Of a stretch of DNA of 42,670 nt, positions 1-42,670 are shown piece by piece. A program made the translations under genes and the position numbers. A model generated the notes under the pieces. It made no database searches and had not been told where the DNA came from. It saw only the letters and a program-made list of their open reading frames with translations. The stretch is from a virus, in IMG/VR virus record IMGVR_UViG_3300025326_000085, positions 1 to 42,670 of that record; one strand, 5' to 3'. Each line of letters starts with the position of its first letter. The first letter of the stretch is position 1.

Positions 1-148
1 TTGGAGCGGATCGCTGAACGGTAAGGTTCCAAAGTCCGAGGCTGAATGGATCTTCAATAAATGGGTCCGCTCACGCATTGAAGTAAAGTACGGCCACCTT
101 GAGCACGCCCGAGACTTTGACATCGGAGGATGGAAACGATCGAGAGAT
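1..148. repeat. Left copy of the terminal direct repeat
   Basis: This segment repeats bases 42521-42670 almost exactly. It differs by T instead of C at position 15 and lacks two bases after about position 23. The missing bases put an in-frame TAA at 22-24, whereas the right copy reads straight through. The repeat lies inside a protein-coding frame and the two halves join in frame, so it looks like an assembly overlap of a circular or circularly permuted genome. A true short terminal repeat of the virion DNA is the alternative. Confidence 0.9.
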
Positions 149-1354
149 GTTATCCCCGCCCACATCGAGCGTGCCACCAGACGAATTACCCAGGCTGAGA
201 TTTATGGTAATGACTACGCGATCGCGCAGAACTACATCGAGCAGATTTTAAATTCAGGGGGGGATTACAAAGCCGCTCAAACTTTGTTCGATAGGGTGGT
301 CGGAAGGGAAGACTATAACCGCCAATGGTCGAAGATTCAAAGGAGTGTAAATAGTTGGCAAGTAGCGACGAAGCTCACCCTTCTTTCAATCCTCAACCCA
401 ACGCAGCTGAACAACGCCGGACTCATTGCGGGGTGGAAATCGTTGGGTCGTCAATTCGGCAGGCAGTTCACGAGTTACACCGAGATGAGGGAATTCGCTG
501 AGCGAGCCGGGTCCATCTTGGGATCAACATTGAGGATGCACCAAAAGGAAGCCCTCTCCCTTGACGGCATCGGCTCGAAGATGATGAAATTAACGGGGGT
601 GACAGCAGAAGAACGCTGGCTCAGGACTCTTTCGACGAACATCATTGCTGACTCCTTCAAACGGGACGCAAAGAAACTCTCCAATACCCGTCTGTATTCG
701 GAGATGCAGCGCAAACTCGACTATCTGAACCTCTCCAAAGACATTAACCTGGCCGAAGTGAGGGAGAGGGGTAATTTTACGGAAGCGGAATTGCTCGACA
801 TCGGTTATGAGGGAGCGCGAAAAACTCAATTCCTCGGGAGGCCCCAGGACTTACCCAAATGGCTCTCAAACCAGGATATTAAAGTCTTCACGCAGTTCAA
901 GAGCTTTGTGACTCAGCAGACGAAGCTGATAAATGACGCGGTTATCAATGAGGCTCGACGCGGTAATCTTAAACCTCTGATATACTTAGCAACGATGTTC
1001 CCGCTGGCCGGCGAAGCAGCTCTCGACCTAAAGAGTCTCATCCAGGGCAGAGATCGACCCGACAACCTCTTTTGGAGGTACGCCGAGGATATGACGGCTG
1101 TTGGCGCTTTCGGGATCATTTCAGATATGATGATCCAAGCCGCCCGCGATCCTCAAGGCTTGTTGAGATGGGCAGCAGGTCCGACCGTGAGTGACGTATC
1201 AGAATTAGGTTACGGACTTGGGCAGGCGGGGCAGGGAAAATATAAGCCGCTCGCTCGATTCGGTGCGAGGCAGATACCCTTCCCGGTGATTCAGCAGGCA
1301 GCGGTCGATGCACTGAGAACTGAGCCGAAGAAGAGGCGAGGAATTACTTTCTGA
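1..1354 (+). CDS. C-terminal part of giant polyvalent/internal virion protein (continues from 38930-42670)
   Basis: The frame is open from base 2 to the TGA at 1352-1354 with no start of its own; the ATG-like start at about 284 is internal. Joined after the 42521-42670 copy of the repeat, it supplies residues about 1248-1648 of a 1,648-residue protein. The segment is rich in amphipathic helices and has a hydrophobic stretch around the part encoded at 980-1020. It resembles the C-terminal helical domains of large phage polyvalent or ejection proteins delivered with the DNA. No catalytic motif is visible in this part. It is the last gene of the rightward late operon and overlaps the convergent gene at 1344-1658 by 11 bases. 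The family assignment rests on general resemblance and position only. Confidence 0.75.
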   Translation, partial: WSGSLNGKVPKSEAEWIFNKWVRSRIEVKYGHLEHARDFDIGGWKRSRDVIPAHIERATRRITQAEIYGNDYAIAQNYIEQILNSGGDYKAAQTLFDRVVGREDYNRQWSKIQRSVNSWQVATKLTLLSILNPTQLNNAGLIAGWKSLGRQFGRQFTSYTEMREFAERAGSILGSTLRMHQKEALSLDGIGSKMMKLTGVTAEERWLRTLSTNIIADSFKRDAKKLSNTRLYSEMQRKLDYLNLSKDINLAEVRERGNFTEAELLDIGYEGARKTQFLGRPQDLPKWLSNQDIKVFTQFKSFVTQQTKLINDAVINEARRGNLKPLIYLATMFPLAGEAALDLKSLIQGRDRPDNLFWRYAEDMTAVGAFGIISDMMIQAARDPQGLLRWAAGPTVSDVSELGYGLGQAGQGKYKPLARFGARQIPFPVIQQAAVDALRTEPKKRRGITF

Positions 1355-11761: not shown

Positions 11762-12340
11762 ATGAAAAAACCGAGGCGATATAACACGCGCGTTCATGGC
11801 CTCACTCCTCTCGAAAAAATGTTTTGCCTTGAATATCTGGTGGATTTGAACCAGACTCAGGCCGCGATCCGCGCAGGCTGTGGCGGCACGGTCGATTCTG
11901 CCGCCCAATGGGCCTCACGGACCATCAAGAAAGTCAAGGTCTCTGAATTCATCGAAGCCCGCAAGCGAGAACGTGAAACAAAACTCGACCTCAAGGCCGA
12001 GCGCATGTTGAAGAAACTCAACACATTAACCGAGGCAAAGCTGACCGACTTTTTTACGATCGACAAAAAGGGCGGCCTGCATTTCAAAGACCCTTCACTG
12101 ATCGACCCCGAATTTTTAATCGCGCTCACCTTTTCAGTGGAGAACCCGGGCAAAAAGGAAAGAGTGTCGGTCTCCCTCTCCGATAAAATCCGCACGCTGG
12201 CCTTCGACAAACTCGCCCATTATCACAAGATCGTCGGCGCCGACGTGAGTGTTTCATTCAACGGCGAAGACCTCGACAGGATGGTTGTGCTGCGGGCGTC
12301 AAAGTTCGACACCTCAGGCTCCGATGTCGCTCCTCATTAG
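11762..12340 (+). CDS. terS: Terminase small subunit
   Basis: The 192-residue product starts MKKPRRYNTRVHGLTPLEKMF and has the typical Terminase_2 N-terminus (LTPLEKMFCLEYL-x-QTQAAIRAG, about residues 14-40), a helix-turn-helix used to recognise viral DNA. A central helical oligomerisation part follows (ERMLKKLNTLTEAKLTDFF). GTG at 11759 is possible, but ATG 11762 is favoured; the ribosome-binding site is weak. It recognises the packaging site and feeds DNA to the large terminase, whose gene overlaps its end. First gene after the terminator at 11708-11746. Confidence 0.85.
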   Translation: MKKPRRYNTRVHGLTPLEKMFCLEYLVDLNQTQAAIRAGCGGTVDSAAQWASRTIKKVKVSEFIEARKRERETKLDLKAERMLKKLNTLTEAKLTDFFTIDKKGGLHFKDPSLIDPEFLIALTFSVENPGKKERVSVSLSDKIRTLAFDKLAHYHKIVGADVSVSFNGEDLDRMVVLRASKFDTSGSDVAPH

Positions 12341-13871
12341 CCTCATACTGGTCCTCATGGTCGAAATCGGACCGCAAGCAGGCGGACAGCAAATCTGTTC
12401 AGACCGCCCTGAGGATGAAGTCCTTTTTGGTGGCAAGGCCGGGCCCGGTAAATCTTGGTGGCTGGTCTATGACGCCCTGGGCACACAATACCGCTTCACC
12501 TCGCTCGGGCGTAACGCCATCGAAGTTCCCGACTACCGTGCCGTGATCTTCCGTCGCCAGTCCAACCATCTCCAAAAACTTATCGACGAAGCGTACAAGA
12601 TGTACTGTTCTTCAACCTTCAAAGCCGAGTACGTCGCGCAGCGCAAAGGCGATCCCGGCCCGTCCTTTATCTTCCCAACCTACACCCGTAAAGGCGATAC
12701 AATCTCCACTACCCGGTCCGGCGCAGTAATATTCTTCTGCCACATGGACCAGGAGAAGGACAAGTTCAACCATGACGGCGCGGAGTATCAGTTCGTCGGC
12801 TTTGATGAGCTCCAGCAGTTCACCTTCGGCCAGTATATATACCTCTTCACCCGCGCACGCTCGAAAGTCCTGGGCTTGAATCCTCGCATCCGCTCAACGG
12901 CGATGCCGATGGGTACGGGTTTGGTCTGGGTCCGCAAGCGGTTCATCCAGAATTCAGAACCGTATCGCCGGTATTCCTTTCTCGCTGATCCTGACGACCC
13001 CGAGCGCAATCCGAGAGGCTTGGAGGTTCCCTACAAGACCAAGTATTCCCAAACAAGGATATTCATTCCCGGCAATCTTGAGGATAATAAATTCGTCCTC
13101 AAAGACGATTATCGCAGCAAGATCAAACAACAGGGGGAGACGGTCGAAAAAGCTCTCCTGGAAGGTGACTGGTACGCCTTCGGCGGTGATTTCTTCAAGA
13201 TGTTCGATCCTGCAAAATCGAAAGTGAAACCCTTCCCGATCCCGGAGGAGTGGCCCCTGATCGGCGGCCTCGATCCGGGCTGGTCATCGCCCTGCGCCTT
13301 CACGCTTCGCACCGTCGATTTCGAGGGGAACCATTACAAACTCTTCACCTACTACGAGCGTGAAAAAAGTTCCCGAGACCACGCCAAATCCATCAAAGAA
13401 CGTCTCAAGAATTTCGAGTGGACCACTGGGCGAATGCCGAACGTCATTGTATCGGGTACGGACGCATGGGCGCGTAAAGACCGCTTCGCCGTCGAATCAA
13501 GTGAAGAAACATTCCGCGATCAGTTCGAGAAGGAGGGACTCTCCCTTGAAAAAGCCGTGACCGACAGGGTAAACGGCTGGTGGGCGATGAAGAACCTTAT
13601 GGAGTCCGGGCGCTATTTCTACTTCGACACCTTCAACGAACCCTTCCTCGATGAAATCGCGGCCAGTGTCGCAGACGAAAAGAACCCGGAAGACATCTTA
13701 GGCAAGGGCAAGAATCCCGACGTGGTTGCGCACGCCCTCGACGCTGACCGTTATAGCATCATGGCCGCCCGCGGGTATTCCAAACCGCCCGAAGAACCGA
13801 AGACATGGATGGACCGCTTGAAGAAAAAGCAGAACCCGGAAGTCCCGGAGTTCAAGGTGGGAAGGGGATAG
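12324..13871 (+). CDS. terL: Terminase large subunit
   Basis: The 515-residue packaging ATPase/nuclease overlaps terS by 17 bases. Walker A is GGKAGPGKSWW (Lys about residue 43) and Walker B is FVGFDEL (Asp-Glu about 161-162). The RNase H-like nuclease acidic residues are visible as GGLDPGW (about 317), SGTDAW (about 380) and HALDADRY (473/475). It translocates DNA into the procapsid through the portal and cuts it. Start is uncertain: ATG 12324 gives a hydrophobic N-terminus (MSLLISLILVLM) that is unusual for a terminase, and ATG 12357 would remove it. No other oddity. Confidence 0.9.
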   Translation: MSLLISLILVLMVEIGPQAGGQQICSDRPEDEVLFGGKAGPGKSWWLVYDALGTQYRFTSLGRNAIEVPDYRAVIFRRQSNHLQKLIDEAYKMYCSSTFKAEYVAQRKGDPGPSFIFPTYTRKGDTISTTRSGAVIFFCHMDQEKDKFNHDGAEYQFVGFDELQQFTFGQYIYLFTRARSKVLGLNPRIRSTAMPMGTGLVWVRKRFIQNSEPYRRYSFLADPDDPERNPRGLEVPYKTKYSQTRIFIPGNLEDNKFVLKDDYRSKIKQQGETVEKALLEGDWYAFGGDFFKMFDPAKSKVKPFPIPEEWPLIGGLDPGWSSPCAFTLRTVDFEGNHYKLFTYYEREKSSRDHAKSIKERLKNFEWTTGRMPNVIVSGTDAWARKDRFAVESSEETFRDQFEKEGLSLEKAVTDRVNGWWAMKNLMESGRYFYFDTFNEPFLDEIAASVADEKNPEDILGKGKNPDVVAHALDADRYSIMAARGYSKPPEEPKTWMDRLKKKQNPEVPEFKVGRG

Positions 13872-13880
13872 GCGTATCGC

Positions 13881-14072
13881 ATGATGACCACCCTCTACCA
13901 AATCCGCTCAACAGGTGAAGTAGTCCAAGCCATCGAATCCTTTGAACACGAAGGAGTCAGGGGGCACCTGGTGGAGCACTATAACGGGGTGAAGAAAAGA
14001 GAGTTTTTACCTTGTGATGCCGTCTGGTTTGTCGCCATCAAAAACGTACAGTGTAAACCGTTGCAGATATGA
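13881..14072 (+). CDS. Small protein between terminase and portal, 63 residues
   Basis: ATG ATG at 13881 follows the terminase by nine bases; its TGA overlaps the portal ATG (ATGA). The product is mostly beta strands (VVQAIESFEHEGVRGHLVEH) and looks like a small SH3- or KOW-like barrel. Function unknown; the position is that of small packaging or portal-associated proteins. Confidence 0.65.
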   Translation: MMTTLYQIRSTGEVVQAIESFEHEGVRGHLVEHYNGVKKREFLPCDAVWFVAIKNVQCKPLQI

Positions 14073-16033
14073 CCGACCCCCAACTCCATACCGATTCCAG
14101 GGTGGCGCAACTCTCATCGGCCTGGACCGCTCTTCAAAACCGCTGGTCCGATTTCCGCGACGCTCAGGTGAAATCCTACAATTACGCCATCGGCGATATG
14201 CTCGACCCTGATGTACGCAAAGAACTCAAGGCCGAAGGCCGTCCTATCTTCGAATTCCAACTCCCGAATCAGACTATCCTCTACTTGGCTGGTAAACTCA
14301 AAAAGGACACCACAAGGATCAAGGCCGTCCCCGTGCGAAGTGAAGACGTGGACGATTCGGAGTTTATCACCTCACTGGTGAACGATTGGGCGATGGGCAA
14401 CTGTGACGGCTATAACGAAATGGCCGGAGCCGGTATTGACGCTGCCATTGGCAAGGTAGGATATGTCTCGAATTATTGGGACATCCGCAGAGATCCCGAG
14501 GGGAAATGGTACACAGGGCGCATTGATCCCTTCCTGGTGATGTTCGACCCTGACTGTAAAAAGCTCAATCAGGATGATTGCCGTTTCGTGTCCTATTCTC
14601 CGATGATGAGCGCCGACGAGATCATTCAGGTCTATAAACGCTATCTCACCCCCGAACTCATCTCAGAGATCAGGCAAGAAGCCTCACTCTACGAGAACGC
14701 CACCGTTTCAGTCTTCCAGAAAGCCCGTGCGTGGTTTGACCGCATCGGAACCCCGGTAGGAACACCCTTCAACGTCGAAAGGGAAGCCCGTCGTAAGAGT
14801 GGACTTCTAACCCCCTTCGTCGATGCGAAAGAGGGCCTTTACCGCGTCATCGAATGGCATGACCGCCGCACCGTCACGAAAAAGTACGTCTACTCACCAG
14901 TGACCCGCGACGTTATTGAAATCCCCGAAGAGAAACACTTGGACGAAGCGTACATCGTCAGTGAGATGAAGAAAATCCCCGGTGCGGTTGTGCAGGACGA
15001 CTCCACCGAATTGCAGTATATCACGGTAGCCTGCCCGGCTCTCATCAAGGACAAGTTCGTTTTAGAGCAGCCCTACATGGTCCAAGGCCACGGCTACTCG
15101 ATCAAATGGGTGTTGTGTTACAACTTCCACCCCGACGTGTTGAAAACGCAGTCCGTCCTCGATTCGCTCATTGCCCCGGTCGATATGTATAACCAGCGGA
15201 TGATGAGTAGTGTTCAACTGGTCGGCGACACCCTGAATCCCCCCATCGACGCGCCGAAAGGTTCGATCGACCCGGATGATATGCCGTCATGGAGATCCCG
15301 CGCCCGCGGCGTCATCCGGTTCTGGAATATCAGAGGTGGGTTCAAACCCGAACCCCGCAAGCCCGATATGAGTGTCTTCAACATCCTTCAGGTCCTGGCC
15401 GAAGAGGGGAAGAACTTGGGTGATTATATATCGGCAATCAGCCCCAACGCCCGGGGCTATCAGGAATCATCGAAAGAATCCGGCGTATTATTTGAATCCC
15501 GCAGGGCCGCTTCGGAGGTGATGACGGCCCACTTCTTCGACAACATGCAGGAGTTCATGTGTAATGTGTTCGATTACACCTTCGCCTCGATCCAAAAGTT
15601 TATGACGTTCGAGCGAACACTCAGGCTCTTTAATGACGAAGGCGATCCGTACTGGTTGGCGGTGAATCGAGAGACCCTTGAAGGTGTGATGAACGACCTT
15701 ACCAAAGGCGAGTATGATTTCAAGCCGGACATTGCCGCGATTGGTGAAACCGCCCGCAAGGAGGCCGTTGCAACTTTGGCCGGTGTATCGGCGCTCTTTA
15801 GCGCTGATCCGGTTATGGGCATGGCCGTTGGAGCTGCGATCCTCCGCAACATGGACGTACCGGAAGCGAAGAAATTGGCCGCGTTCGCAGAGCAGCGCAT
15901 TGGCGTGGCGGTCAATGCCGAGCAGATGCAGGCGCAACAGCAGGCAGTCTCAGACCAACTCGGAGCAGCCAGGCAGGTGAAGCAACTCTCCGAACCAGCG
16001 AAAAAGAACGGAGCCTCGAATGGGAAAAGCTGA
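14069..16033 (+). CDS. Portal protein (P22-like)
   Basis: The 654-residue protein has the features of P22-type portals. It has an N-terminal helical stem (SAWTALQNRWSDFRDAQ), the conserved start of the wing (GRPIFEFQLPNQTILYLAG), the GAGIDAAIGKVGYV segment, and a late helical region (about 440-520) that would form the clip and crown. It forms the dodecameric vertex through which DNA enters and to which the short tail attaches. The 3' end is helical, Gln- and Ala-rich (MQAQQQAVSDQLGAARQ). It overlaps the next gene by 14 bases. Confidence 0.85.
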   Translation: MTDPQLHTDSRVAQLSSAWTALQNRWSDFRDAQVKSYNYAIGDMLDPDVRKELKAEGRPIFEFQLPNQTILYLAGKLKKDTTRIKAVPVRSEDVDDSEFITSLVNDWAMGNCDGYNEMAGAGIDAAIGKVGYVSNYWDIRRDPEGKWYTGRIDPFLVMFDPDCKKLNQDDCRFVSYSPMMSADEIIQVYKRYLTPELISEIRQEASLYENATVSVFQKARAWFDRIGTPVGTPFNVEREARRKSGLLTPFVDAKEGLYRVIEWHDRRTVTKKYVYSPVTRDVIEIPEEKHLDEAYIVSEMKKIPGAVVQDDSTELQYITVACPALIKDKFVLEQPYMVQGHGYSIKWVLCYNFHPDVLKTQSVLDSLIAPVDMYNQRMMSSVQLVGDTLNPPIDAPKGSIDPDDMPSWRSRARGVIRFWNIRGGFKPEPRKPDMSVFNILQVLAEEGKNLGDYISAISPNARGYQESSKESGVLFESRRAASEVMTAHFFDNMQEFMCNVFDYTFASIQKFMTFERTLRLFNDEGDPYWLAVNRETLEGVMNDLTKGEYDFKPDIAAIGETARKEAVATLAGVSALFSADPVMGMAVGAAILRNMDVPEAKKLAAFAEQRIGVAVNAEQMQAQQQAVSDQLGAARQVKQLSEPAKKNGASNGKS

Positions 16034-17639: not shown

Positions 17640-18965
17640 ATGTCAGCAACAATCTTAAATCTTTCCAGCAACGCGGAACTCAGGACTCTGCTCGCCGAGA
17701 AAATGCGGCGTCAGCAGTTCAAGGGTTCCAGGTTTGCCCGCTGGATCGCGCCAAACTACCTCGCCGCCGGCGGTCAGAACACCGCCGAGGAAGTGGTATC
17801 GACAGGACCGATGGGCCCGAAATGGACCAGCGCTCCAATCGAAGCCGTCGATGCCTTCATTCAGCAGGGCCGAACGGACATGGTCATCCCGGTCCGCTCG
17901 ATCCTCACCGGGTTGCCGAAATTCGGCGACTCCCAACTCCGGGGCTCGGAGGAACCGATGGCCTTCACCTTCAGGGCCGTCAAGATCAACCGATGGAGGA
18001 AGGCTGTCGCCCCTCCGGTCGGCATGAACCGTCAGAAGATCAAACAGTGGGCGAAGCAGGACGTGATGAGCGCCTCTAATTCGCTCATGGACTGGTACAG
18101 GAATTTCCTGCCGTCGAATATCCTCTCGGCAATCTTGGGCGGCTATTCGCGTGAAGTGGTGGCCCCCGTGGTCAATGGTGGGTTGGGTCAGGCAATCGTC
18201 TCCCATCCCAACATGATCGTCGCTGGTACGGGCCGCGTGGCCTATACCGCAGGCCGTCCCGGAACTGTCGGGTATGAAAACTCCTGCGCCACAGCCATCG
18301 ACGGTCTCACCAACACCGCCGAGGATAAGATGTCGGTTGCATTCGTCCGGAACTTGGTTTTCGAGGCGAACCGCTCCAACATCAAACCCCTCGTCACCAA
18401 AGACGGATACGAATTCTATCCCATCTGGATGAAGGATTCGGCATGGTTGCAGCTGCGCACGTCGGCGGAATTCATAGCCTACGCGCAGAGCCTGACCTTA
18501 TCCGAGATGTCGAAGCACCCCTTAGGGAACGGAGCGGTGGCGATCATCGACAACGCGGTGATCTACGTCGATTCGATGCTCTGGAACGCCTACACCAACA
18601 CGACCGATGCTCTCATCACCTCCGGGTTGGTGGAATACGGCCCGCGTCCGACGGCGGGTCAAAGGGCGCAGGGTCTTTACACCGCCAACACGATCAACGC
18701 CCTTGACACCGGCACGAAGGCCGTCTGTATCCTTGTCGGCCAGTCGATGCTCTCGATTGGCACCGGCGAAGAGATGGACCTGATTGACGACGAAGAGGAT
18801 TACGGTGCGATCAAGGGGATGGCGATTGACATGATAAAATCCATCGTCCGCAACGAGACGTATGACACTCTCGGGATTACCGGCCTCACGGCTGGCGATT
18901 TTTACGAGAATACGTCGTCGCTGGTGGGCGTCACCTATTCACCGCACGCCTTGAGTTATGCGTAA
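17640..18965 (+). CDS. Major capsid protein (N4 gp56 / DUF4043-like)
   Basis: AAGGAG precedes ATG 17640. The 441-residue protein shows the pattern I know from the N4-gp56/DUF4043 capsid group: TDMVIPVRSILTG, then QLRGSEEPMAFTFRAVKINR, an RKAV stretch and an Ala-rich long helix (SASNSLMDWYRN). The HK97 fold is assumed for this family. With a P22-like portal and no tape measure it points to a podovirus. It is the shell of the virion; the exported-protein block starts 19 bases downstream. Confidence 0.8.
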   Translation: MSATILNLSSNAELRTLLAEKMRRQQFKGSRFARWIAPNYLAAGGQNTAEEVVSTGPMGPKWTSAPIEAVDAFIQQGRTDMVIPVRSILTGLPKFGDSQLRGSEEPMAFTFRAVKINRWRKAVAPPVGMNRQKIKQWAKQDVMSASNSLMDWYRNFLPSNILSAILGGYSREVVAPVVNGGLGQAIVSHPNMIVAGTGRVAYTAGRPGTVGYENSCATAIDGLTNTAEDKMSVAFVRNLVFEANRSNIKPLVTKDGYEFYPIWMKDSAWLQLRTSAEFIAYAQSLTLSEMSKHPLGNGAVAIIDNAVIYVDSMLWNAYTNTTDALITSGLVEYGPRPTAGQRAQGLYTANTINALDTGTKAVCILVGQSMLSIGTGEEMDLIDDEEDYGAIKGMAIDMIKSIVRNETYDTLGITGLTAGDFYENTSSLVGVTYSPHALSYA

Positions 18966-22293: not shown

Positions 22294-25200
22294 ATGAAAT
22301 ACCTACTCACACTGGCCGCTTCGGTCCTGTTCATCTCCGCATCCCTTATCGCCCAGGTCCGGGATGACTTCGCCTATACCGGGGCAGTCGCCGGTCAAAA
22401 GAAATGGGTGGCAATTACCGGCATTACCAACGGCCTAACGGCCTCAAGTGGCGCGGCGAAATCGTCCAACCCGTCATTCGCTGGACTCGGCATGGTGGCG
22501 TGGGATTCGCTCATGCAGTCGAATACCGAACTTCGTATCAAATGGGACTCCCTATCCACCGGAACGGCGGGAACCGACCCGGTCTTGATAAACGCCATGC
22601 CGGGCAAGGCGTATGGCTCTGGAAATAACGGGTACAATTTCAGGGCGATGTATGCTCCTACCGGATCGAACGCTCTACGCTTTCATCGTCAAACAGGGTC
22701 GGGTCGAACGATCATTTCCACCCTCTACCTGCCTGGTGGAGCTTCGCAGTGGGCGCGGGGGGACACCATATCTATCCGTATCTGGAACCTGAGTCCATTC
22801 TCAGCGTCGGCGTGGCGGTACCGGGCGGCGGGGACGCGGGACTCTTTAGGTCTTGTGTCTGATACACTCTACGACCTTTCGACGGGTTTTTACGCGTGGC
22901 TCGGCAATAGCACCGACACGATCACGGCCAAGCTTGACGATTTCTACACGGCCTCTCTCGGTGCGGGTGGAGCGACAAACACGCCTCCTACAATCACAGC
23001 CCTCACATCGTCCCCACCGTCGCCGAACGTGGCGACCGCCGATTCCCTGGTGACGATCACCATGAACGCCTCAGACGCGGGAGTAGGGGCGGGCCTTGAT
23101 TCGATGAAGATATACGTTGATGGGTCCCTCGCGGCCCAAAAGGGGGGGATCACCGGAACATCGGATGTTTTATCAACGACCGCGACACGGTACAGCGTTG
23201 GAGTACACACCTACTATGGACGGGTGAGGGACGATTCGGCGTCGGTAGTGCTTGAACCGACATCAGGCACGAAGACGTTTACGGTTGATTCCAACGCCTC
23301 GAGCTCCGCCCAGTATTGGGTTGAGGCATATTTCACCTCCTGGACCCTCAACATACCCGGAACAGCGGCGAACTACGGCGCACTGTTGATGTCGGACATC
23401 GACTGGACGACGTTCACCCACGCGCTGTTTTTCACTACGGGGCCGGGCTCAGCCGGTCAATTGCTGGTCGGAAACGGACTACCGATCCGGCGTTCGACAT
23501 TCACAAGCGAGGCGCACCTGCACGGCAAACCGGCAATCCTCTGTTTGGGGGGATTCGGCAACACGAATTGGGGGGCGGCGTGCAATAACGATTCGATGCG
23601 GACCGTTTGGCTCAATAACGTATTGACCGAGGTAGACTCAATGGGTTGGGACGGCATCACGCTGGACATTGAGCCGTTCAGTAATTCCGTCGGCGGCACG
23701 AACGACACGGGCCGCGTCGGTCCGTGGATCAGAAGACTGTATGACTCACTCCAGGTGAGAACTTCCGCCTACACCGCGACGGGAAAGCCGATGATAAACG
23801 CGTCGATGACTCCCTCGTGGGGCGGGGCGTGGTATGCCCGTCACGAATATCTCATGGATCAGATCAACCTGATGTCGTACGACGCTCCGGGCAACCTGGG
23901 GTGGGGCCAGAACCGGACCTGGCACATGAACCCCTTCTTCTCTACGAACAAAGATAATCCGACCGGCTCGAATCGGTACTATCAATCAATTCAGGAGCGT
24001 TGGTTATCGAGTCAGGATGTCGCCTCCCCGGTGACGCTGACTAAGGCGAAATGGGGAATATCCCTCGACTGGAACGGCGTGTTGTGGCGGGGGGCGAGAA
24101 GCCCGACAAATCCCGACGAGGGGTGCACCGAACCCAAATGTATCTGGACATCACCCGCCATTGAACGGATCTACGACTACAACTTCGACCAGATGTATGC
24201 GCGGTTTCTCGATACGGCGACTTCCGCATCAATCCGGTGGGACGACTACCACAAAGGGGCGTACCTGAAAATACTGAAACCCGCATCGGAGGCGCCGAAC
24301 CCCGCCGCCCCCTGGGAAGACGACATTTTCCTCACCTATGCCGACTCGATGACCGTCGAGTATACACTGACGATGTTGACCGATTCCGGCTTTGGGGGGT
24401 TTATCGTCTGGAACTACACCGAAGGGCAAAGGCCCCCTGGTTACCCAAACCGGAATCATAACATGGAGCTCATAAAACAAATCATAATGACCGCCGCCGA
24501 TACGACGACGCGAAGGATCACGTCGATCTCTCCGGCGACGAAGGTTGCAGGAGAAGTAGATTTCACGCTTACGGTGAACGGCACGAACTTGAAGTCCGGC
24601 GACAGCGTATTTATCGGGGCGGACGTGTACCGGGCGACCTCGTACGTTGGGCCAACACAGCTGACAGCGGCGATCTTGGCGGCGGATATAGCGACGGCCG
24701 GCAACAAAGGAATTTACGTCAAGAACGGTGCGAACACATCGAACACCGTGAACCTCGTCGTCAATGCGGCCTCAACCCCGCCAGTCATTACCTCGGCATC
24801 TCCTTCAACCGTAGGCCAGGGGGCGGTAGACCGCAGTGTCACCATTTCGGGGTCGAACATCTCGTCGGGTCCAACACTCAGCGTTAGTGGTGCGGGGGTG
24901 ACGGTCCTTAGCGCCGTCTATGTCAATTCGCAAACGATTACCGCCACACTCAGCGTGGGAGCGGGATCGGCGATTGGCGCAAGGAACCTCGTCCTGACCA
25001 ACAACACCGGATTAAAAGATACACTGGTTGGGGGGTTGACGGTCACCCCTGCCCCAACCATTACAAGTCTCGTCCCGGACACGATGTACCCTGGGACGAC
25101 GCAAGCCCTCACCTTAACAGGAACAAATTTCCTTTCCGGCACAGACCTGGCGTTTGTATTCTCAAATTCAGGGGTGATAATTATTGGGGCGTACACGCTG

Positions 25201-26643
25201 ACGGGGGCAACCTCGGTAAGTGTCACGGTCGGGACCAATGCGACGCTCCCGGTCGGGAGTTATTCGCTCACTTTCGTCAACGGGGACGGTGGAAGGGTAA
25301 CGCTTTCTAATGCCCTGAAGATTGTGGCAAGGACATCGACGCAGATATCGTCGAACTCCGTCTACATCGTTGAAGGTGGAGTCAGGAAATTTAAGAGCCC
25401 CGATTATTTCACCCTTAAAGACATCCCCGCGACGCAAATCCCGGTATCGCTCACCGGGTTTGGCAACCTCGGCTTAAACGGAATCAGGTACGCTGATGGA
25501 TCGCTGGCCTATCCGAATTTCTCCATGCAGCTCGGTTCCGATGGGACCTCTGCCACATCCCCGGTCAAAATATGGGCAACCGACGGGGTGGGGGTCACGC
25601 TCTCCGCTGATGGCTTCCACTTCTCAAGCCCACTGGCGACGAACAGCACACGCGGCTCGGTGATTGGAAACTCGTATTTCGACGTTATCAACGGGTCGAT
25701 TGAGCCGAAGGATGGAAGTATACCATCAACAAAACTTATTTGGCCCATTCCCGCCCAGGCATTACCGAGTGAAATAATTTACGCATTTGGCGGCGATAGT
25801 GGCACGATCCCAATGCTTACCGGATCAGACATCTTCGCCGGATATACCTTTGTGCCCCTGCCAACCACCGGATCGCCGGCACTCGACCCTGAAACGGACT
25901 TCGTGTTTTGGGAAGAATTTCCCCACGGTGGAATCAGTACGACCATCAATGGGAATAACGCACTCAGTAGCGCGATGAATCTTGGGTCGAACGAATGGTT
26001 TGTTGCCGGTTTTGGTGGGGATGCAACGGTCTCGCTCACCGTCACGTCAGAATCTTGGGGATCTGTTTCCCCGGCCCGGTTTGGGATAATCAGTCTTGAC
26101 CCCTCCGCAGCGTCGGTGATGGGCACCGAAAGGGGCGGATACGTCACAATGAACAGTTCCGGGTCCACCTACCCATTCCCGATGATGGCCCCGGCAACGT
26201 ATAAATTCGGCGTGTACACCCCTGCCACGACCGACTCGATGGGATGGATGATCGGCGTTGTGGAAAGGAATGCGACGTCCGCCGTTTCCGCCGATGACCT
26301 GGCGACGACGAACGAGGCAATCCTATTTAATTTCGGGTCGGTCGCCGCGACGAACGACACCCTGTACGCGATTGTTACCGGAAACGCTGTGAAAAACAAG
26401 ATAGCCCTGAGAACCGTCGCGTTATCGACGGCGTACAAACTCAAGATCGTGGTCGCGGCCTCCTCGATCGCATTCTATGTTAATGATACCCTCAAAACGA
26501 CGGTGACAACAAACCTTCCGGCAAACACGACAACCGCAACACCCGTCATCGCGGCGTGGAATTACGGGGCGGACTTGGTGGCGACGGGGAAGAATCTCCT
26601 GGTCGATTACTACTACTTCAAAGCGTCCGGATTAAATAGGTAG
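22294..26643 (+). CDS. Giant exported GH18 glycosidase with IPT/TIG repeats
   Basis: The 1,449-residue product has a clear signal peptide (Lys2, cleavage LIA|Q before Gln21). After a LamG-like beta domain (to about 225) and an Ig-like segment (about 228-335) comes a glycoside hydrolase 18 TIM barrel (about 340-735). Its motif is WDGITLDIEP (453-461), with the catalytic Glu at about 460 and the essential Asp two before it; a Thr replaces the first inner Asp, as in chitobiase-like members. Three IPT/TIG domains (about 740, 829 and 920 onward) follow, then a jelly-roll-like C-terminus (about 1,175-1,449). GH18 enzymes cleave chitin or the GlcNAc core of glycans. It may be a virion depolymerase that breaks a surface polysaccharide, or an enzyme exported by the infected cell. 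Confidence 0.8.
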   Translation: MKYLLTLAASVLFISASLIAQVRDDFAYTGAVAGQKKWVAITGITNGLTASSGAAKSSNPSFAGLGMVAWDSLMQSNTELRIKWDSLSTGTAGTDPVLINAMPGKAYGSGNNGYNFRAMYAPTGSNALRFHRQTGSGRTIISTLYLPGGASQWARGDTISIRIWNLSPFSASAWRYRAAGTRDSLGLVSDTLYDLSTGFYAWLGNSTDTITAKLDDFYTASLGAGGATNTPPTITALTSSPPSPNVATADSLVTITMNASDAGVGAGLDSMKIYVDGSLAAQKGGITGTSDVLSTTATRYSVGVHTYYGRVRDDSASVVLEPTSGTKTFTVDSNASSSAQYWVEAYFTSWTLNIPGTAANYGALLMSDIDWTTFTHALFFTTGPGSAGQLLVGNGLPIRRSTFTSEAHLHGKPAILCLGGFGNTNWGAACNNDSMRTVWLNNVLTEVDSMGWDGITLDIEPFSNSVGGTNDTGRVGPWIRRLYDSLQVRTSAYTATGKPMINASMTPSWGGAWYARHEYLMDQINLMSYDAPGNLGWGQNRTWHMNPFFSTNKDNPTGSNRYYQSIQERWLSSQDVASPVTLTKAKWGISLDWNGVLWRGARSPTNPDEGCTEPKCIWTSPAIERIYDYNFDQMYARFLDTATSASIRWDDYHKGAYLKILKPASEAPNPAAPWEDDIFLTYADSMTVEYTLTMLTDSGFGGFIVWNYTEGQRPPGYPNRNHNMELIKQIIMTAADTTTRRITSISPATKVAGEVDFTLTVNGTNLKSGDSVFIGADVYRATSYVGPTQLTAAILAADIATAGNKGIYVKNGANTSNTVNLVVNAASTPPVITSASPSTVGQGAVDRSVTISGSNISSGPTLSVSGAGVTVLSAVYVNSQTITATLSVGAGSAIGARNLVLTNNTGLKDTLVGGLTVTPAPTITSLVPDTMYPGTTQALTLTGTNFLSGTDLAFVFSNSGVIIIGAYTLTGATSVSVTVGTNATLPVGSYSLTFVNGDGGRVTLSNALKIVARTSTQISSNSVYIVEGGVRKFKSPDYFTLKDIPATQIPVSLTGFGNLGLNGIRYADGSLAYPNFSMQLGSDGTSATSPVKIWATDGVGVTLSADGFHFSSPLATNSTRGSVIGNSYFDVINGSIEPKDGSIPSTKLIWPIPAQALPSEIIYAFGGDSGTIPMLTGSDIFAGYTFVPLPTTGSPALDPETDFVFWEEFPHGGISTTINGNNALSSAMNLGSNEWFVAGFGGDATVSLTVTSESWGSVSPARFGIISLDPSAASVMGTERGGYVTMNSSGSTYPFPMMAPATYKFGVYTPATTDSMGWMIGVVERNATSAVSADDLATTNEAILFNFGSVAATNDTLYAIVTGNAVKNKIALRTVALSTAYKLKIVVAASSIAFYVNDTLKTTVTTNLPANTTTATPVIAAWNYGADLVATGKNLLVDYYYFKASGLNR

Positions 26644-37172: not shown

Positions 37173-37733
37173 ATGGGAATATTCGATTCACCGCGCGAAA
37201 GAGAAGGACCGGGCGCGTACCGTAACCAGCTCGGGCGCTACGACCGGATCATTGGCGACCTGGGCAATCTGCCGAACGAGTTTGGGGGGATTAACTCTCT
37301 CTCAGACCTTTTCGCCAAATACGGACTCTCGCCCTTTTCAAGCAATACCTTCGCTCCGGCCAAAAGAGCGCTCGGCACTTCACAGGCCCGCTCAAGAGCC
37401 GCCCTCACCGATCGCTTAGGCGGCCAGAGCGCCAACCCGGAATTCGCCTTCTCTGGGTTGGAGGGTGGATTCTCCGGCGCCTACTCCAATCTCTTAGGTG
37501 AGGAGCAACAGGCCAAGACGGGAATGGAGCGCTTCAATGCCGGATTTCTGGGGAACATCCTGGGGCAAAAGCAGGGCGCGAACGAACGCAGGACGGGTAT
37601 GACATTATCGGCAGAGCAGGCCCGGGCCAACGCCGTGAGGGATTATATCATGTCTCTTTCGGGAGCTTCGACGATGGACGATATTCTGGGGATCGCCGGC
37701 ACGGTTGCGAAATTCTTCCCAGATGGGGGTTGA
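37173..37733 (+). CDS. Internal virion protein candidate, 186 residues
   Basis: AGGAG precedes ATG 37173. The product begins MGIFDSPREREGPGAYRNQ, is Gly/Ala/Phe-rich with amphipathic segments (FSGAYSNLLGEEQQAKTG), and has a hydrophobic end (DDILGIAGTVAKFFP). Its place just before 37772 and the giant protein, and its composition, are those of ejection proteins of podoviruses. No motif proves it. Confidence 0.6.
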   Translation: MGIFDSPREREGPGAYRNQLGRYDRIIGDLGNLPNEFGGINSLSDLFAKYGLSPFSSNTFAPAKRALGTSQARSRAALTDRLGGQSANPEFAFSGLEGGFSGAYSNLLGEEQQAKTGMERFNAGFLGNILGQKQGANERRTGMTLSAEQARANAVRDYIMSLSGASTMDDILGIAGTVAKFFPDGG

Positions 37734-37771: not shown

Positions 37772-38929
37772 ATGGGTATCTACGAAACTCTTCAAAGGAG
37801 CTCTGGGAGCATTGACCAGGTCGCCTCGGCCTTCCAATCCTTCCTGAAAAATAAACAGGACGAAGAGAAGCGCAAAAAGCTTCAAAATGTGATGTACTCT
37901 GACCGGGAGATCATCAAACCCGAAGTCTTGGCCTCTCTCGGCATGAACCAGCAGGAAATTCCGATCGACATAGCCAATCGTCGCCCGCCACCGACAGGGG
38001 CCAGGCCACCGTTTACCGAAGAACCCTCACAGACCACAACCGAAAAGCAGTTTATGGGTGTCAATTCGAAAAACGCGATGGCGATAGCCGAAATTATGAA
38101 GATGACCCCCGAGCAGATGGTGGAATTTCTCTCAGGCGTTCAGGGCCAGGAGGAAAGAAGAGCAAGGGGGAATATCCTCGCCGTCCCGGAAGGAACGGAC
38201 GTGATCGACATTGGAACCGGGGAGAAGAAATACGGGAATGTAAAGGACTTTGGGCCGCGTACAAGCGTTAATCCCTCGCTCGGGAAACAGTGGATAATGC
38301 GGGCCGGTCAAAAAGTATTCGATATACCCGGCGAGGGGGACGAGCCGTACAGCAAACCCGGCGCACCCTCTCAAAATCCCTCGCTCGGGAAAGATTGGGT
38401 GATGAGAGACGGGAAGCCCGTCTTCGCCGTACCGCAAGAAGGCGATCAGCCCTACTCAAAGCCCACAGCCGGAGAGGGTAAAATATCGCGCACCGTCACC
38501 TACGTAAAGCCCGATGGAAAGCAGGGAATCAAAACGTACTCCGGCACCCCCCTGCAAGTTATTGAGCAGATTCAGGCCAGGTTAAAAGCCCTCGATGCTC
38601 TGGCCGAAAAATCGGGAATGGGCGGGGGGTCAAGCGGGTTCCTCGGGATGGGTGGATCGTCAACGTGGAGCGATTTCAAAGGCGGCAAAGCAACGATTGA
38701 TGATCTCTCCACCGGCCTTCAGGGTAACGCCGCCGAATACTCGGAACTTGAAAGCCAACTTGAAGACCTTCAGAGTATGGGGGGTGAAGAATCGCCGGAT
38801 GGTGGGGCCAGTGAGAATAACACCTACGCCCTCGAGGAAGTCCGCGCTCAATACCCAAACCTAAAGGATAAGACAGACCAGGAAATTATCGAGGCTTACG
38901 CGAAACAGGGAATCACGATCAAGCCGTAA
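37772..38929 (+). CDS. Internal virion protein candidate with 35-residue tandem repeat
   Basis: AAGGAA precedes ATG 37772. The 385-residue protein has a helical N-terminus, a proline-rich segment (NRRPPPTGARPPF, about residues 69-81) and two tandem 35-residue repeats (from NPSLGKQWIMRAG to NPSLGKDWVMRDG, about residues 167-236). Helical and Gly/Ser-rich parts follow, and the C-terminus has a short helix (LKDKTDQEIIEAYAKQG). It lies immediately before the giant protein, with stop and start adjacent, and probably is an ejection protein. No enzyme motif found. Confidence 0.65.
   Translation: MGIYETLQRSSGSIDQVASAFQSFLKNKQDEEKRKKLQNVMYSDREIIKPEVLASLGMNQQEIPIDIANRRPPPTGARPPFTEEPSQTTTEKQFMGVNSKNAMAIAEIMKMTPEQMVEFLSGVQGQEERRARGNILAVPEGTDVIDIGTGEKKYGNVKDFGPRTSVNPSLGKQWIMRAGQKVFDIPGEGDEPYSKPGAPSQNPSLGKDWVMRDGKPVFAVPQEGDQPYSKPTAGEGKISRTVTYVKPDGKQGIKTYSGTPLQVIEQIQARLKALDALAEKSGMGGGSSGFLGMGGSSTWSDFKGGKATIDDLSTGLQGNAAEYSELESQLEDLQSMGGEESPDGGASENNTYALEEVRAQYPNLKDKTDQEIIEAYAKQGITIKP
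38270..38479 (+). repeat. Two tandem 105-base repeats in the 37772 gene
   Basis: The period is 105 bases (35 residues). The first 18 bases of each copy are identical (AATCCCTCGCTCGGGAAA at 38270 and 38375); the remainder has diverged while keeping the frame. Confidence 0.8.
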
Positions 38930-41900
38930 ATGCCCGAAGGAAAGCGCATACCGCCCCCGCCGATCTTCCCTGAGGACGATCAATCAACGGCAATAGCGCA
39001 AGACCGTCCGTTTTACTCTGGAAAGAAGCGCCGAATTCCGCCGCCTCCACTCTTCCGGGACGACGAGCAACCCTCACTCCTGGGTGAGGATCTCTATGAT
39101 ATTTTCACAACAACGGGACGGACGCTCAGTGAGGGGCTTGCCGATCTCGAAATCGGTCCCGGTCCAGGCGGAAGACCGGCGTTCACAAAAAATCCCATCG
39201 CCGGTGGAGCGAAGATTCTCCGCTCGGTGGGGGAAGCTGTCGCCGCGCCATTCGGATTGATCGACCGGCTCCTGCGGACCAATTCCATAACCACCCCGAT
39301 CGCCGAGGGTGCCGCCATGCCCTTCGAGCTCGCCGCGGGTGCCGTCCGTGGTGGGGAAAAACTCATCGACGTTGGCTTGAGAGGCGCCGGAGTCCCCGAG
39401 TCGGTAATGAACCTCGGGATGGACCCCCAAAAGGCCGCTGAGGCCGCCACAGCCCTCTCAGAATTAAACCAGATAGCCGCTCAGTTCGCCGTACCACTTG
39501 CAGGCAAGAAAATAGGGGGTAAAACAGCAGGGAAGATTATCAAGATGCAGGAGGAGGCATCGCGCCCCATTTTCCGCCCATCCAATCGGGAGCCGGTCGA
39601 CTACATCGCCCCGGAAAGCCGTCAACTCTACCCTCCGAGGAACCAGCGTTTCGAACAGCGTCCAGGTCAACCAGTCCGGGACATCAAGGCCGGTGTACCA
39701 CTTCGTAAAGTCCCGCCACTCCTGCCTGAAAATCTTCCCCTAAGGAAACCCGAGTTTGAGCCCGTCCGCACATTTGAGGTAGGTCCGGAAGGTGGAGCGA
39801 AGGCGATAAAATCCACACCAGCCCCTTTGACGAGCCGCATTGATAAAGCTCTCTCTGATGTGGCTCCAAACACCAAAGCGAGAATCAAACGCAAGATCGA
39901 AGCGAAAGATAAACTCTCAGTGGGAGAGAAAAACATCCTCACCCAGAGGGACCGTAACCTCTTCGACGATATGTATGAGCCAAAGGGCTTACCGCAGTTA
40001 CCCGAAGGCGGAATCCCCGCGATCGACAACAATATCGTATTCGACATTAACGACTACCGAAGCGGAGAATCATTTGGTACGGTCCGCGCCAACGATCCGA
40101 ATACCGGTAAAACTATCGGCAAAGTAGATTTCTCAGAGTATGGGGGGAATGTTTATGTGAAGATGGTGGAGGTAACGCCGGAGTTTCGTCGTCAGGGCAT
40201 AGCGACAAAGATGTACGATCGCATCAAGCAGGAATACCCCAAGGCAAAAATTGAGCGATTCGGCGATATGTCGACCGACGAAGGAGCAGCTTTCAGGGAA
40301 TCATTAAAGGGTGAAGCCGAGAAAGCACCAAAACCCGATCCCACCACGATCAAAACGAAACTCATCTCGTTGCGCGATCAAGTGAATAAGGGTAGGTACA
40401 GAGGAAGAGTAGCCGACATCACCGAAGCGGAACTCTTGGCAAGACGCAACGGATTTGATTTCTCCTACGATCCCGGCACACTCAAATACAACGTCATTTC
40501 AGCCGAAGGGAAGAAGCTCAAGAAAGTCCCAGAAGTGAAGATGAGTGATAATGCCCCCAACCCCACACTCCTTGAGAATATCAATCCTGAAACGAGAACC
40601 CGTATTCAGGACATCCTCGATGAAGTAGGAGAGGACATCAACATTGAATCCTTGACGAAGCCCCAGATCGAAGCCGCAATCAAGGACATCAGGATCGACA
40701 AGGGAAAAGAAGCGTCTCGCCGCGCCCAGATGTTGATTGATGAACTTTTGAAAGCTGAAGCCGAAGGCATTGTCGGTGTTGTGAGTGGGTCTGTTCCGGG
40801 CGTCGGGAAGGATATACGTGGCATCAACGTGAACGATCTCCTTGAGCAGAAATACGAGCGGGAGGGGATAGTCGGGGAGATGGGGTCCGGACTTGATGTG
40901 CCCGTCCCAGAGGTCAATATCCCAGAAGTCCAGCGCCGACGGGCTAATTCATTTACAGATATCCGAAGTCTTGAGGAAGAATTAAGGCGTGTAAATCTGG
41001 TGGTCAAAAGTAAAGAATCGTTATCCCCATCAGAACAAATAGAGTTGGGGGAATACTACGACGCCTTACTGGACAGACGTGGTGGTTTGAAGCCTGTCGG
41101 AGAGCCTCTCTCCTTTGACAAAACTGCGGCCGGCGAACAGGGCAGTTTCGCCAAGCTCGAACAGGCGAAGATGCCTCCGCGCAAGCCATCCGGCCTCTCC
41201 TACGAGCAACAGGTGGAAGGGACGATGTTCGAAAAGCCCAAAACTCCGGGAGCACCGCAGGAGGAGATGTTTAGAGTGGGCAATCCCGATGCCCTCGCTC
41301 AACAAATCGTAAATATTGCAACAACGGGCGAGGGAGCTTCTATTGAAGGTATTGCTCGGGCCCGAGAGCTTGCTGAACAGAGCAAAGACATTTTCACGGG
41401 GGCTCAACGCGAGGAGATCGCATCATTCTTAAATGATCTCGAATCGAAGCTGAAAAAACCAGGGGCTCCTGTCGTATTAACAGCAGAGGATATTGTCCGA
41501 GAGCAGAGCGGTCTGAGCAAGGTAGGAGCGCGGTCAGGCAAATCCATCGAGGAACTCTATCCATCCAAGCCCAAGCCGCAATCCTGGCAGGGCGCCGTCT
41601 CAGAATCCTCCAAGCGTCTCAAGGAAAAAGGTCTTTCCCCCGATCGCCCACAGGGCAATCTCCCTTCAGGCTTAGACCCGACAACACTCATAGATCCCAA
41701 GAAAGTCAAATACATCATCGACCCGATCATCAAGAAGGCCACGAGCGACGCCCGAAAGATGATTATTGACCAACGCATGAGGCCAGAGCAATTCCCCTTT
41801 GAAGTTCGCTCGACGATCAACACGCTTTTATCAGAGCATCCAGATTTCAGAGGATTATCGGCAGAGCAGAAACGGGCCATCTTCAATCACGTCAAGGATG

Positions 41901-42670
41901 TCACGAAAAACCTTGTCTTCAATCCCGTGGTGGGGGAATTTCAAACACAAGAAGGCAGGAAATTCCGCGAAGAGATGAGGAAAGCCCAGGGTGGAGGATT
42001 GACCCCCGCGCCGATTGAAGGTGGTAGGATCATCTCAGAGCCGATGAAGAGGGAAAACATAAACCCCACAGAGATATTCAGCGATGGGATGAAATCATTT
42101 ACTCGTCGTGAATTGACAAGCACGATGGGGGAGTATGTTAAAAGTCAGGGCTCATCCGGTGAATCTCTTATCCGGTCCATCAATCGAGATTACCGTGAAT
42201 CGGCGCAATGGGCTGGTAGACTGGAAGTCGATTACCGCGTTGCAACCAAAAAACTCTCTAATCAGGAATTCGACGAGTTTGTAACTCTTGCCGATGAAGG
42301 AGGAACCACCAGAAACGCGAATGTAGCCGATGCTCTAAAGGTTTGGGACAAGATCAGGACGGAGATCGCTGACCGCGCAATGAAGGCCGAACTCGAAATT
42401 GCCACCTTCGACAGAGCGAAGGGGGATTTCGTCAAAGTTCCGTTTAAGCCGATGGAAAATTATTTTCCCCACGAATTCGACATCACCGAGATCAAGAAAG
42501 CCGCCAACCGGGAGAAATACTTGGAGCGGATCGCCGAACGGTACAAGGTTCCAAAGTCCGAGGCTGAATGGATCTTCAATAAATGGGTCCGCTCACGCAT
42601 TGAAGTAAAGTACGGCCACCTTGAGCACGCCCGAGACTTTGACATCGGAGGATGGAAACGATCGAGAGAT
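38930..42670 (+). CDS. N-terminal part of giant polyvalent/internal virion protein with embedded GNAT domain
   Basis: ATG 38930 directly follows the previous stop. The frame is open for 1,247 codons to the window edge and continues at base 149 to 1354, giving about 1,648 residues. Visible parts include two N-terminal proline motifs (KRIPPPPIFPEDD at 5-17, RRIPPPPLFRDDE at 34-46). A GNAT acetyltransferase-like motif A follows (VTPEFRRQGIATKMY, residues 415-429) in a beta-alpha context (about 375-450). Then come long charged, helical regions. Giant multi-domain proteins of this kind (polyvalent proteins) are injected with phage DNA and act early on the host; other internal virion proteins lie next to it. 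The GNAT could modify a host protein or a nucleic-acid component, but its catalytic competence is unproven. Confidence 0.75.
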   Translation, partial: MPEGKRIPPPPIFPEDDQSTAIAQDRPFYSGKKRRIPPPPLFRDDEQPSLLGEDLYDIFTTTGRTLSEGLADLEIGPGPGGRPAFTKNPIAGGAKILRSVGEAVAAPFGLIDRLLRTNSITTPIAEGAAMPFELAAGAVRGGEKLIDVGLRGAGVPESVMNLGMDPQKAAEAATALSELNQIAAQFAVPLAGKKIGGKTAGKIIKMQEEASRPIFRPSNREPVDYIAPESRQLYPPRNQRFEQRPGQPVRDIKAGVPLRKVPPLLPENLPLRKPEFEPVRTFEVGPEGGAKAIKSTPAPLTSRIDKALSDVAPNTKARIKRKIEAKDKLSVGEKNILTQRDRNLFDDMYEPKGLPQLPEGGIPAIDNNIVFDINDYRSGESFGTVRANDPNTGKTIGKVDFSEYGGNVYVKMVEVTPEFRRQGIATKMYDRIKQEYPKAKIERFGDMSTDEGAAFRESLKGEAEKAPKPDPTTIKTKLISLRDQVNKGRYRGRVADITEAELLARRNGFDFSYDPGTLKYNVISAEGKKLKKVPEVKMSDNAPNPTLLENINPETRTRIQDILDEVGEDINIESLTKPQIEAAIKDIRIDKGKEASRRAQMLIDELLKAEAEGIVGVVSGSVPGVGKDIRGINVNDLLEQKYEREGIVGEMGSGLDVPVPEVNIPEVQRRRANSFTDIRSLEEELRRVNLVVKSKESLSPSEQIELGEYYDALLDRRGGLKPVGEPLSFDKTAAGEQGSFAKLEQAKMPPRKPSGLSYEQQVEGTMFEKPKTPGAPQEEMFRVGNPDALAQQIVNIATTGEGASIEGIARARELAEQSKDIFTGAQREEIASFLNDLESKLKKPGAPVVLTAEDIVREQSGLSKVGARSGKSIEELYPSKPKPQSWQGAVSESSKRLKEKGLSPDRPQGNLPSGLDPTTLIDPKKVKYIIDPIIKKATSDARKMIIDQRMRPEQFPFEVRSTINTLLSEHPDFRGLSAEQKRAIFNHVKDVTKNLVFNPVVGEFQTQEGRKFREEMRKAQGGGLTPAPIEGGRIISEPMKRENINPTEIFSDGMKSFTRRELTSTMGEYVKSQGSSGESLIRSINRDYRESAQWAGRLEVDYRVATKKLSNQEFDEFVTLADEGGTTRNANVADALKVWDKIRTEIADRAMKAELEIATFDRAKGDFVKVPFKPMENYFPHEFDITEIKKAANREKYLERIAERYKVPKSEAEWIFNKWVRSRIEVKYGHLEHARDFDIGGWKRSRD
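42521..42670. repeat. Right copy of the terminal direct repeat
   Basis: This 150-base copy matches bases 1-148. It keeps the reading frame intact (YLERIAERYKVPKSEAEW), so it is probably the correct version and the left copy has sequencing or assembly errors. It lies wholly inside the giant virion gene. Confidence 0.9.

Follow-up and report, generated by a model that had tools for sequence, protein, structure and literature searches.

What would an acetyltransferase domain be doing inside a giant protein encoded behind the virion genes of a phage? This question is raised by IMG/VR virus record IMGVR_UViG_3300025326_000085, a 42,670-base virus record that we analyzed at full length (the window), in which an open reading frame (ORF) opening at 38930 carries a GNAT acetyltransferase domain and runs past the window end. 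The reading that we favor, and consider somewhat probable, is that the ORF encodes the large protein for DNA ejection in a phage that has a P22-like portal and probably a short tail, and that its GNAT domain would be a protein acetyltransferase delivered with the virion. The GNAT fold is supported; from gene position we infer delivery by the window phage, and acetyl transfer by the domain is predicted. Acetylation of a host target at entry, as proposed in a preliminary description of this stretch, is plausible. Published work is cited here for those parts of each source that were available.

The preliminary description had placed a coenzyme A (CoA)-binding motif, VTPEFRRQGIATKMY, at residues 415-429 of the ORF, and that is where it lies. 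Its RRQGIA at 420-425 fits the pattern [RQ]xxGx[AG], the CoA-loop motif of GNATs, and R421 and G423 of this loop are invariant in 17 of 17 aligned domains. The Pfam model PF00583 recognized the window protein with 22.5 bits (E 1.5e-4), above its gathering score of 20.7, and the other four Pfam GNAT models listed stayed under their cut-offs. Two profiles built from relatives without the window scored the giant ORF at 82.6 bits (E 4.7e-25) and 81.0 bits (E 1.8e-24), values that are somewhat flattering because the relatives in the profiles were chosen for their likeness to the window and co-aligned. Among the 585 six-frame stretches of at least 40 amino acids scanned from the window, the runners-up reached 3.6 and 4.7 bits with the two profiles, and the maximum for 500 shuffled copies of the giant protein was 3.7 and 7.5 bits. 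A tblastn comparison with 2.3 Gb of phage DNA matched a protein of Tunturiibacter phage Tunturi_5 (E 6e-13). When the domain alone was compared with the PDB by phmmer, the best match (E 0.092) was a GNAT; phmmer of P0002 against the PDB and a PADLOC search each returned no match.

Structure prediction, which the preliminary description had proposed as a check, returned a GNAT fold and not some other one. An AlphaFold model from 17 sequences has a mean predicted local distance difference test (pLDDT) score of 78.8, with at least 90 in 58 of 116 residues, and shows four strands, a helix, a strand and a helix, in that order. Ten-residue pLDDT means are 83-94 for residues 365-444 and then drop to 52-57, which makes the last helix uncertain. 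Among the best 50 matches listed by Foldseek against the PDB, 44 carry acetyl- or acyltransferase or GNAT in their titles, and the remaining six are RibT (three), Ard1, and 4crz and 4cry, whose titles carry no enzyme name; 32 PDB chains matched at E<=0.001. VIA-align superposed the model on AAC0020 (Z 10.3, root-mean-square deviation 3.2, 95 aligned) and on HPA2 with acetyl-CoA (Z 9.7, 2.3, 94 aligned), and predicted viral structures gave 44 matches at E<=0.001, with a NAT_SF phage protein at the top. The claim of a GNAT domain with a CoA-binding motif is thus borne out by profile, fold model and relatives, which also support the placement of residues 415-429 inside a genuine domain predicted to span about 369-463.

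Relatives of the domain were sought in several collections. Across 50,697 phage records, 23 records matched by tblastn at E up to 0.5. Single-sequence scans with the window GNAT domain found no relative in viral contigs or genome contigs, and profile scans with a four-row alignment recovered 19 loci from viral contigs and 33 from genome contigs; of these 33, 21 (L052-L072; ORFs of 104-325 amino acids) were set aside as ordinary-looking small GNATs. Six of the 19 viral loci lie in ORFs of at least 1000 amino acids, and the closer relatives of the domain tend toward giant ORFs. Ten loci contain giant ORFs of 1803-2765 amino acids (nine of them cut by the locus end), and their titles name bacteria that we take to be of Clostridia type. 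The comparison of domain content suggested in the preliminary description revealed ART-PolyVal, LPD22, LPD23, LPD38 or a transglycosylase alongside the GNAT. A 2775-amino-acid plasmid protein (pPME5) combines the GNAT relative with ART-PolyVal and LPD23, and LPD22 accompanies it in a 2037-amino-acid phage protein (L031) encoded behind an endopeptidase-type protein. A single 1892-amino-acid ORF (L034) contains an SLT transglycosylase, the GNAT and LPD38 (27.1 bits against a cut-off of 27), its SLT stretch also matching phrog_342, the gp16 family, at E 1.1e-27; a 1033-amino-acid phage protein joins a transglycosylase to a GNAT scoring 20.2 bits, slightly below the cut-off of 20.7. Tunturi_5 gp273 (L004, 2246-6715), annotated as a NUDIX hydrolase, has three ART-PolyVal and two GNAT stretches beside its NUDIX domain and is a polyvalent protein.

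Two GNAT families occur in polyvalent proteins according to Iyer et al. 2017 (PMC5512222), who placed these GNATs in a RimI-like clade, hence with protein substrates, and argued that polyvalent proteins act in conflicts at entry. The window domain is a member of a compact GNAT family of polyvalent proteins. The window protein itself, at 1648 amino acids, bears a GNAT and follows genes with virion-structural matches, in agreement with the size, location and effector content by which polyvalent proteins are recognized. The chromosomal and faecal-phage members probably correspond to the second, conjugative-element family of PMC5512222, as matched by description; the words 'gp16', 'internal virion', 'T7-like' and 'Autographi' are absent from the main text of that paper. 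When giant ORFs were compared by blastp, regions outside the GNAT matched at E<0.001 only for the sister contig L003 and CRP-810 gp34, so that similarity mostly confined to the GNAT region looks like that of a moving domain. In the subfamily, strand 5 is followed by a T-x-[DE]-G-x-A signature, small solo members included. Among 55 loci, T-x-[DE]-G-x-[AF] occurs in 17 of 28 domains in ORFs of at least 500 amino acids versus 0 of 27 in smaller ones (10/19 versus 0/27 after repeats were dropped). We rejected it as a mark of giant proteins, since two plasmid ORFs outside this count, L020 (200 amino acids) and L019 (annotated coding sequence of 394 amino acids), carry it; the signature therefore marks the subfamily and not giant size.

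The genome setting points to the kind of protein that carries the domain. The preliminary description ended the ORF at 42670, which did not hold: bases 42545-42670 exactly repeat bases 23-148 (126 bases, the first 22 bases of the window lying outside the match), and because the frame stays unbroken across this terminal repeat up to 1354, the protein is 1648 residues long. We read the repeat as a circular-map overlap or a terminally redundant genome; its length suggests the former, produced in assembly, over a genuine repeat at the genome ends. The giant gene is preceded by genes matching virion-structural PHROGs, some small ORFs, and then genes of 186 and 385 amino acids. This is the order of podophage ejection genes, suggesting a podophage ejection protein. 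No Pfam match was obtained for the 385-amino-acid protein, and scans of viral contigs found no relative of the 186-amino-acid protein or of the carboxy-terminal part of the giant protein. The carboxy terminus weakly resembles that of gp16, with an FTQFKSF stretch followed by hydrophobic stretches at residues 1523-1541 and 1561-1579 and a basic end. Contig L003 (2-2728) is 95% alike to the window protein over residues 931-1008 and then has no blastp match, yet shares the RRGIT[FW] end, indicating that the giant protein is modular with a conserved tail.

The same kind of GNAT occurs in T7-like phages, in 14 records with 11 phage names and genomes of 39-41 kb. These proteins are annotated as internal virion protein D, internal virion protein with endolysin domain, lytic exotransglycosylase, ejectosome component or hypothetical protein, with one record unannotated. 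Given that the last 319 residues of T7 gp16 are encoded in 1198 records of the collection (E<=1e-10), a GNAT-bearing gp16 is uncommon. Five loci (L005, L007, L010, L011 and L013; L010 is the A7 protein) are gp16 genes of T7-like phages with the GNAT. We aligned the gp16s of PP74, LET1, A7, P7124 and EcpYZU01 with that of T7, and in all five the GNAT is part of inserted sequence, roughly 190 to 330 residues long, that follows T7 residue 717. The flanks are 52-65% identical to T7 in aligned stretches, and in three of the five the amino-terminal part differs. The insertion site is close to the DNA-entry mutations G737D, I754T and E761K, within residues 411-1118 of T7 gp16, which are modeled in the host cytoplasm (review, PMC8954989). 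When PP74 or A7 is compared with the remaining three, nonsynonymous divergence (pN) is lower in the GNAT (0.19-0.22) than in the gp16 backbone (0.30-0.33); within each of two gp16 groups (Berlinvirus and Kayfunavirus per the records, P7124 having no genus and being placed by its gp16) it is higher in the GNAT (0.10-0.22) than in the backbone (0.04-0.10). Because its divergence pattern departs from that of the backbone, the sequences suggest that the GNAT was exchanged between genera as a cassette. The ratio of nonsynonymous to synonymous divergence (pN/pS) is low, 0.12-0.34 over 10 pairs, and with synonymous sites near saturation this rough estimate indicates that the insert seems kept by selection.

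In virions of phage A7, proteomics detected ORF6, of 1644 amino acids, through 111 unique peptides at 72.9% coverage, and the uppermost band of the gel was attributed to this protein (PMC8427288). In Acinetobacter phage Ab9, a 2839-amino-acid ORF behind genes annotated as internal virion protein and endolysin gives a weaker match (E 1e-3). In the available parts of the open-licence literature, to which the search was restricted, we found no published report of a T7-like gp16 that contains a GNAT insert; in a Pectobacterium Studiervirinae paper that includes PP74 (PMC7693777), the mentions of 'acetyl' (12 of 13 listed) concern other matters. Collectively, gene order, domain relatives and the virion data for A7 favor the earlier suggestion of a polyvalent or ejection protein; as these virion data belong to another phage, packaging by the window phage is the part that we infer.

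A virion-delivered acetyltransferase would be made late as part of the giant protein, packaged in the head and expelled through portal and tail at infection. The carboxy-terminal region may help to form a route through the inner membrane, and the GNAT domain would arrive in the cytoplasm together with the DNA or slightly ahead of it. There it could use host acetyl-CoA to acetylate host proteins acting on the incoming DNA, at their lysines or amino termini, with defence nucleases, RNA polymerase or others as candidate acceptors. Several points weigh against this reading. The available parts of the literature surveyed yielded no assay of a subfamily member. Predicted CoA contacts derive from sequence and fold model, and the last helix (from about residue 450), which bears the T-x-[DE]-G signature, has pLDDT scores in the 50s. 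Pfam recognized the GNAT alone in the window protein, with no second domain and no peptidoglycan hydrolase domain, SLT included. Outside the GNAT no significant similarity to T7 gp16 was established (phrog_342 E 0.0074; hhalign probability 8.3%), the products of the two genes just upstream gave no match to gp14, gp15 or any ejection family, and the selection estimate for the gp16 inserts is, as noted, rough.

Two alternatives are narrower forms of the virion-delivered acetyltransferase, and the odds of the three therefore overlap. One is host take-over, in which the domain would acetylate RNA polymerase or some other protein of the transcription or translation machinery, as the GNAT Rac of phiKMV-like phages modifies host RNA polymerase (PMC7824862). 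The same paper puts this forward for injected polyvalent ART and GNAT domains, which may act like Rac, and the RimI-like placement of Iyer et al. 2017 (PMC5512222) points to protein substrates; we regard it as rather unlikely to be the specific role.

The other narrower form is counter-defence, in which the delivered domain would acetylate DNA-touching lysines of a host defence nuclease before phage expression. With the subfamily profile A2, the solved structure that scored best was 6IUF (E 2e-6); RibT (2.4e-5) and GCN5 (2.6e-4) ranked lower. This is AcrVA5 (PMC11021501), a broad acetyltransferase by which Cas12a, many E. coli proteins and probably Cas2 are acetylated, and defence nucleases are therefore suggested as first candidate targets, in keeping with the argument that polyvalent proteins act in entry conflicts (PMC5512222). 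That match, however, covers only some 38 positions of the profile, near the CoA loop, where GNATs are most conserved. The broader profile A1 put AcrVA5 second, on a par with others, and AcrVA5 was not among the best 50 matches listed by Foldseek or VIA-align, which excludes nothing. Being short, second by A1 and unrepeated among the listed fold matches, the likeness is a lead, and we consider counter-defence unlikely. A bolder extension, to which we likewise assign a low probability, is that podophages, some T7-like ones included, carry a movable AcrVA5-type cassette in an ejection protein projecting into the cytoplasm, in which case the DNA-delivering channel itself would acetylate and disarm nucleases or polymerase where the DNA enters, before phage expression.

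The remaining explanations depart further from a virion-delivered enzyme acting on the host. In a self-directed role, the domain would acetylate the ejection proteins or phage DNA (Mom-like) or regulate DNA entry. The T7-like insert does lie near G737D, I754T and E761K, mutants with transcription-free DNA entry (PMC8954989); however, the domain also occurs in plasmid and chromosomal proteins with no recognized gp16, which makes a gp16-specific role unlikely as the general one and leaves this explanation very doubtful. Just as improbable is that the giant protein is not ejected and is instead a late non-structural or tail protein: its similarity to gp16 is weak and its presence in virions is deduced, with proteomics from another phage, but gene order, polyvalent-type domain relatives and the A7 virion data speak against it. 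Least probable is a remnant, a folded, inactive GNAT retained as a spacer, for which one may cite that activity is predicted and that family members vary after strand 5, but which fits poorly with a CoA-loop R and G invariant in 17/17 domains and with the low pN/pS of the T7-like insert.

For T4 Alt it is established that an enzyme which modifies proteins is injected along with the DNA (PMC5512222), and delivery of polyvalent GNATs is a prediction in the available published accounts; since PMC5512222 and PMC7824862 state it, the general idea of injected GNATs is already in print. What this analysis adds is this known theme in a gp16- or ejection-type carrier, a carrier that we did not find described in the available parts of the open-licence literature searched. 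The same kind of domain in a T7-like ejection protein makes the enzyme-delivery idea testable in laboratory phages, and the gp16 insert of T7-like enterobacterial phages, one of them with virion proteomics, offers a genetically simple system for studying the delivery, activity and purpose of the GNAT.

Feature coordinates are collected in the table. The amino terminus of the giant protein (38930-39100) has a repeated proline-rich unit (KRIPPPPIFPEDDQ, KRRIPPPPLFRDDEQ) that may serve as a packaging signal, and the 385-amino-acid protein (37772-38929) contains an internal repeat, NPSLGKQWIMRAGQKVFDIPGEGDEPYSKP plus a near copy. A 1449-amino-acid protein of the structural region (22294-26643) carries a glycosyl hydrolase 18 (chitinase-type) domain and TIG domains. 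T7 gp13 has been likened to a roseophage GNAT (PMC6775973); no relation to the window domain was shown here, its own Pfam family being the sole match at E<=0.01 and its hhalign probability to the profile 0.4%.

Table. Features of the window discussed in the text, with positions in the 42,670-base record.
Feature	Position	Strand	Basis or remark
Motif of the preliminary description, residues 415-429; CoA loop RRQGIA, residues 420-425	40172..40216; loop 40187-40204	+	
GNAT domain, residues 369-463 (predicted first strand to last helix)	40034..40318	+	AlphaFold secondary structure; Pfam 390-443
STDEGAAF, residues 448-455, the T-x-[DE]-G-x-A signature after strand 5	40271..40294	+	Low-confidence model region
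Giant protein, residues 1-1247	38930..42670	+	ORF open at window end
Giant protein, residues 1248-1648 and stop	149..1354	+	Same frame past terminal repeat
Terminal repeat, 5' copy	23..148	.	3' copy is 42545-42670
FTQFKSF, residues 1494-1500	887..907	+	Like the T7 gp16 QFK(S/T)F stretch; weak
Basic carboxy terminus KKRRGITF	1328..1351	+	Sister contig L003 ends in RRRGITW
186-amino-acid gene, first of putative trio	37173..37733	+	gp14-like by position and size alone; PHROGs none better than E 0.2
385-amino-acid gene, second of putative trio	37772..38929	+	gp15-like by position alone; best PHROGs match a virion structural protein, E 0.091
Terminase large subunit	12249..13871	+	phrog_979 E 5.3e-38
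P22-like portal protein	14069..16033	+	PF16510 E 2.8e-54; phrog_156 E 2.9e-51
Major capsid protein	17640..18965	+	phrog_334 E 6.6e-18

Set beside known systems, the window domain resembles the polyvalent-protein GNATs in being a compact GNAT in a giant late phage protein with relatives fused to ART-PolyVal and LPD domains, and differs in that its carrier is a putative podophage ejection-type protein. With AcrVA5, the best PDB match of profile A2, it shares the character of a compact acetyltransferase of a mobile element; AcrVA5, in contrast, is a small solo protein (a 96-residue chain) rather than a virion-protein domain, and about 38 positions are similar. Rac is a stand-alone protein made after entry, unlike the domain in the giant protein. 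Both are phage GNATs, Rac acting on host RNA polymerase (PMC7824862). From T7 gp16 the window protein differs in that its GNAT lies in the first third of the protein and not after residue 717, that no significant homology to gp16 is established and that no SLT domain was found in it. Like T7 gp16, it is the last and largest product of a three-gene group (putative in the window), with a QFKSF-like stretch, hydrophobic segments and a basic end.

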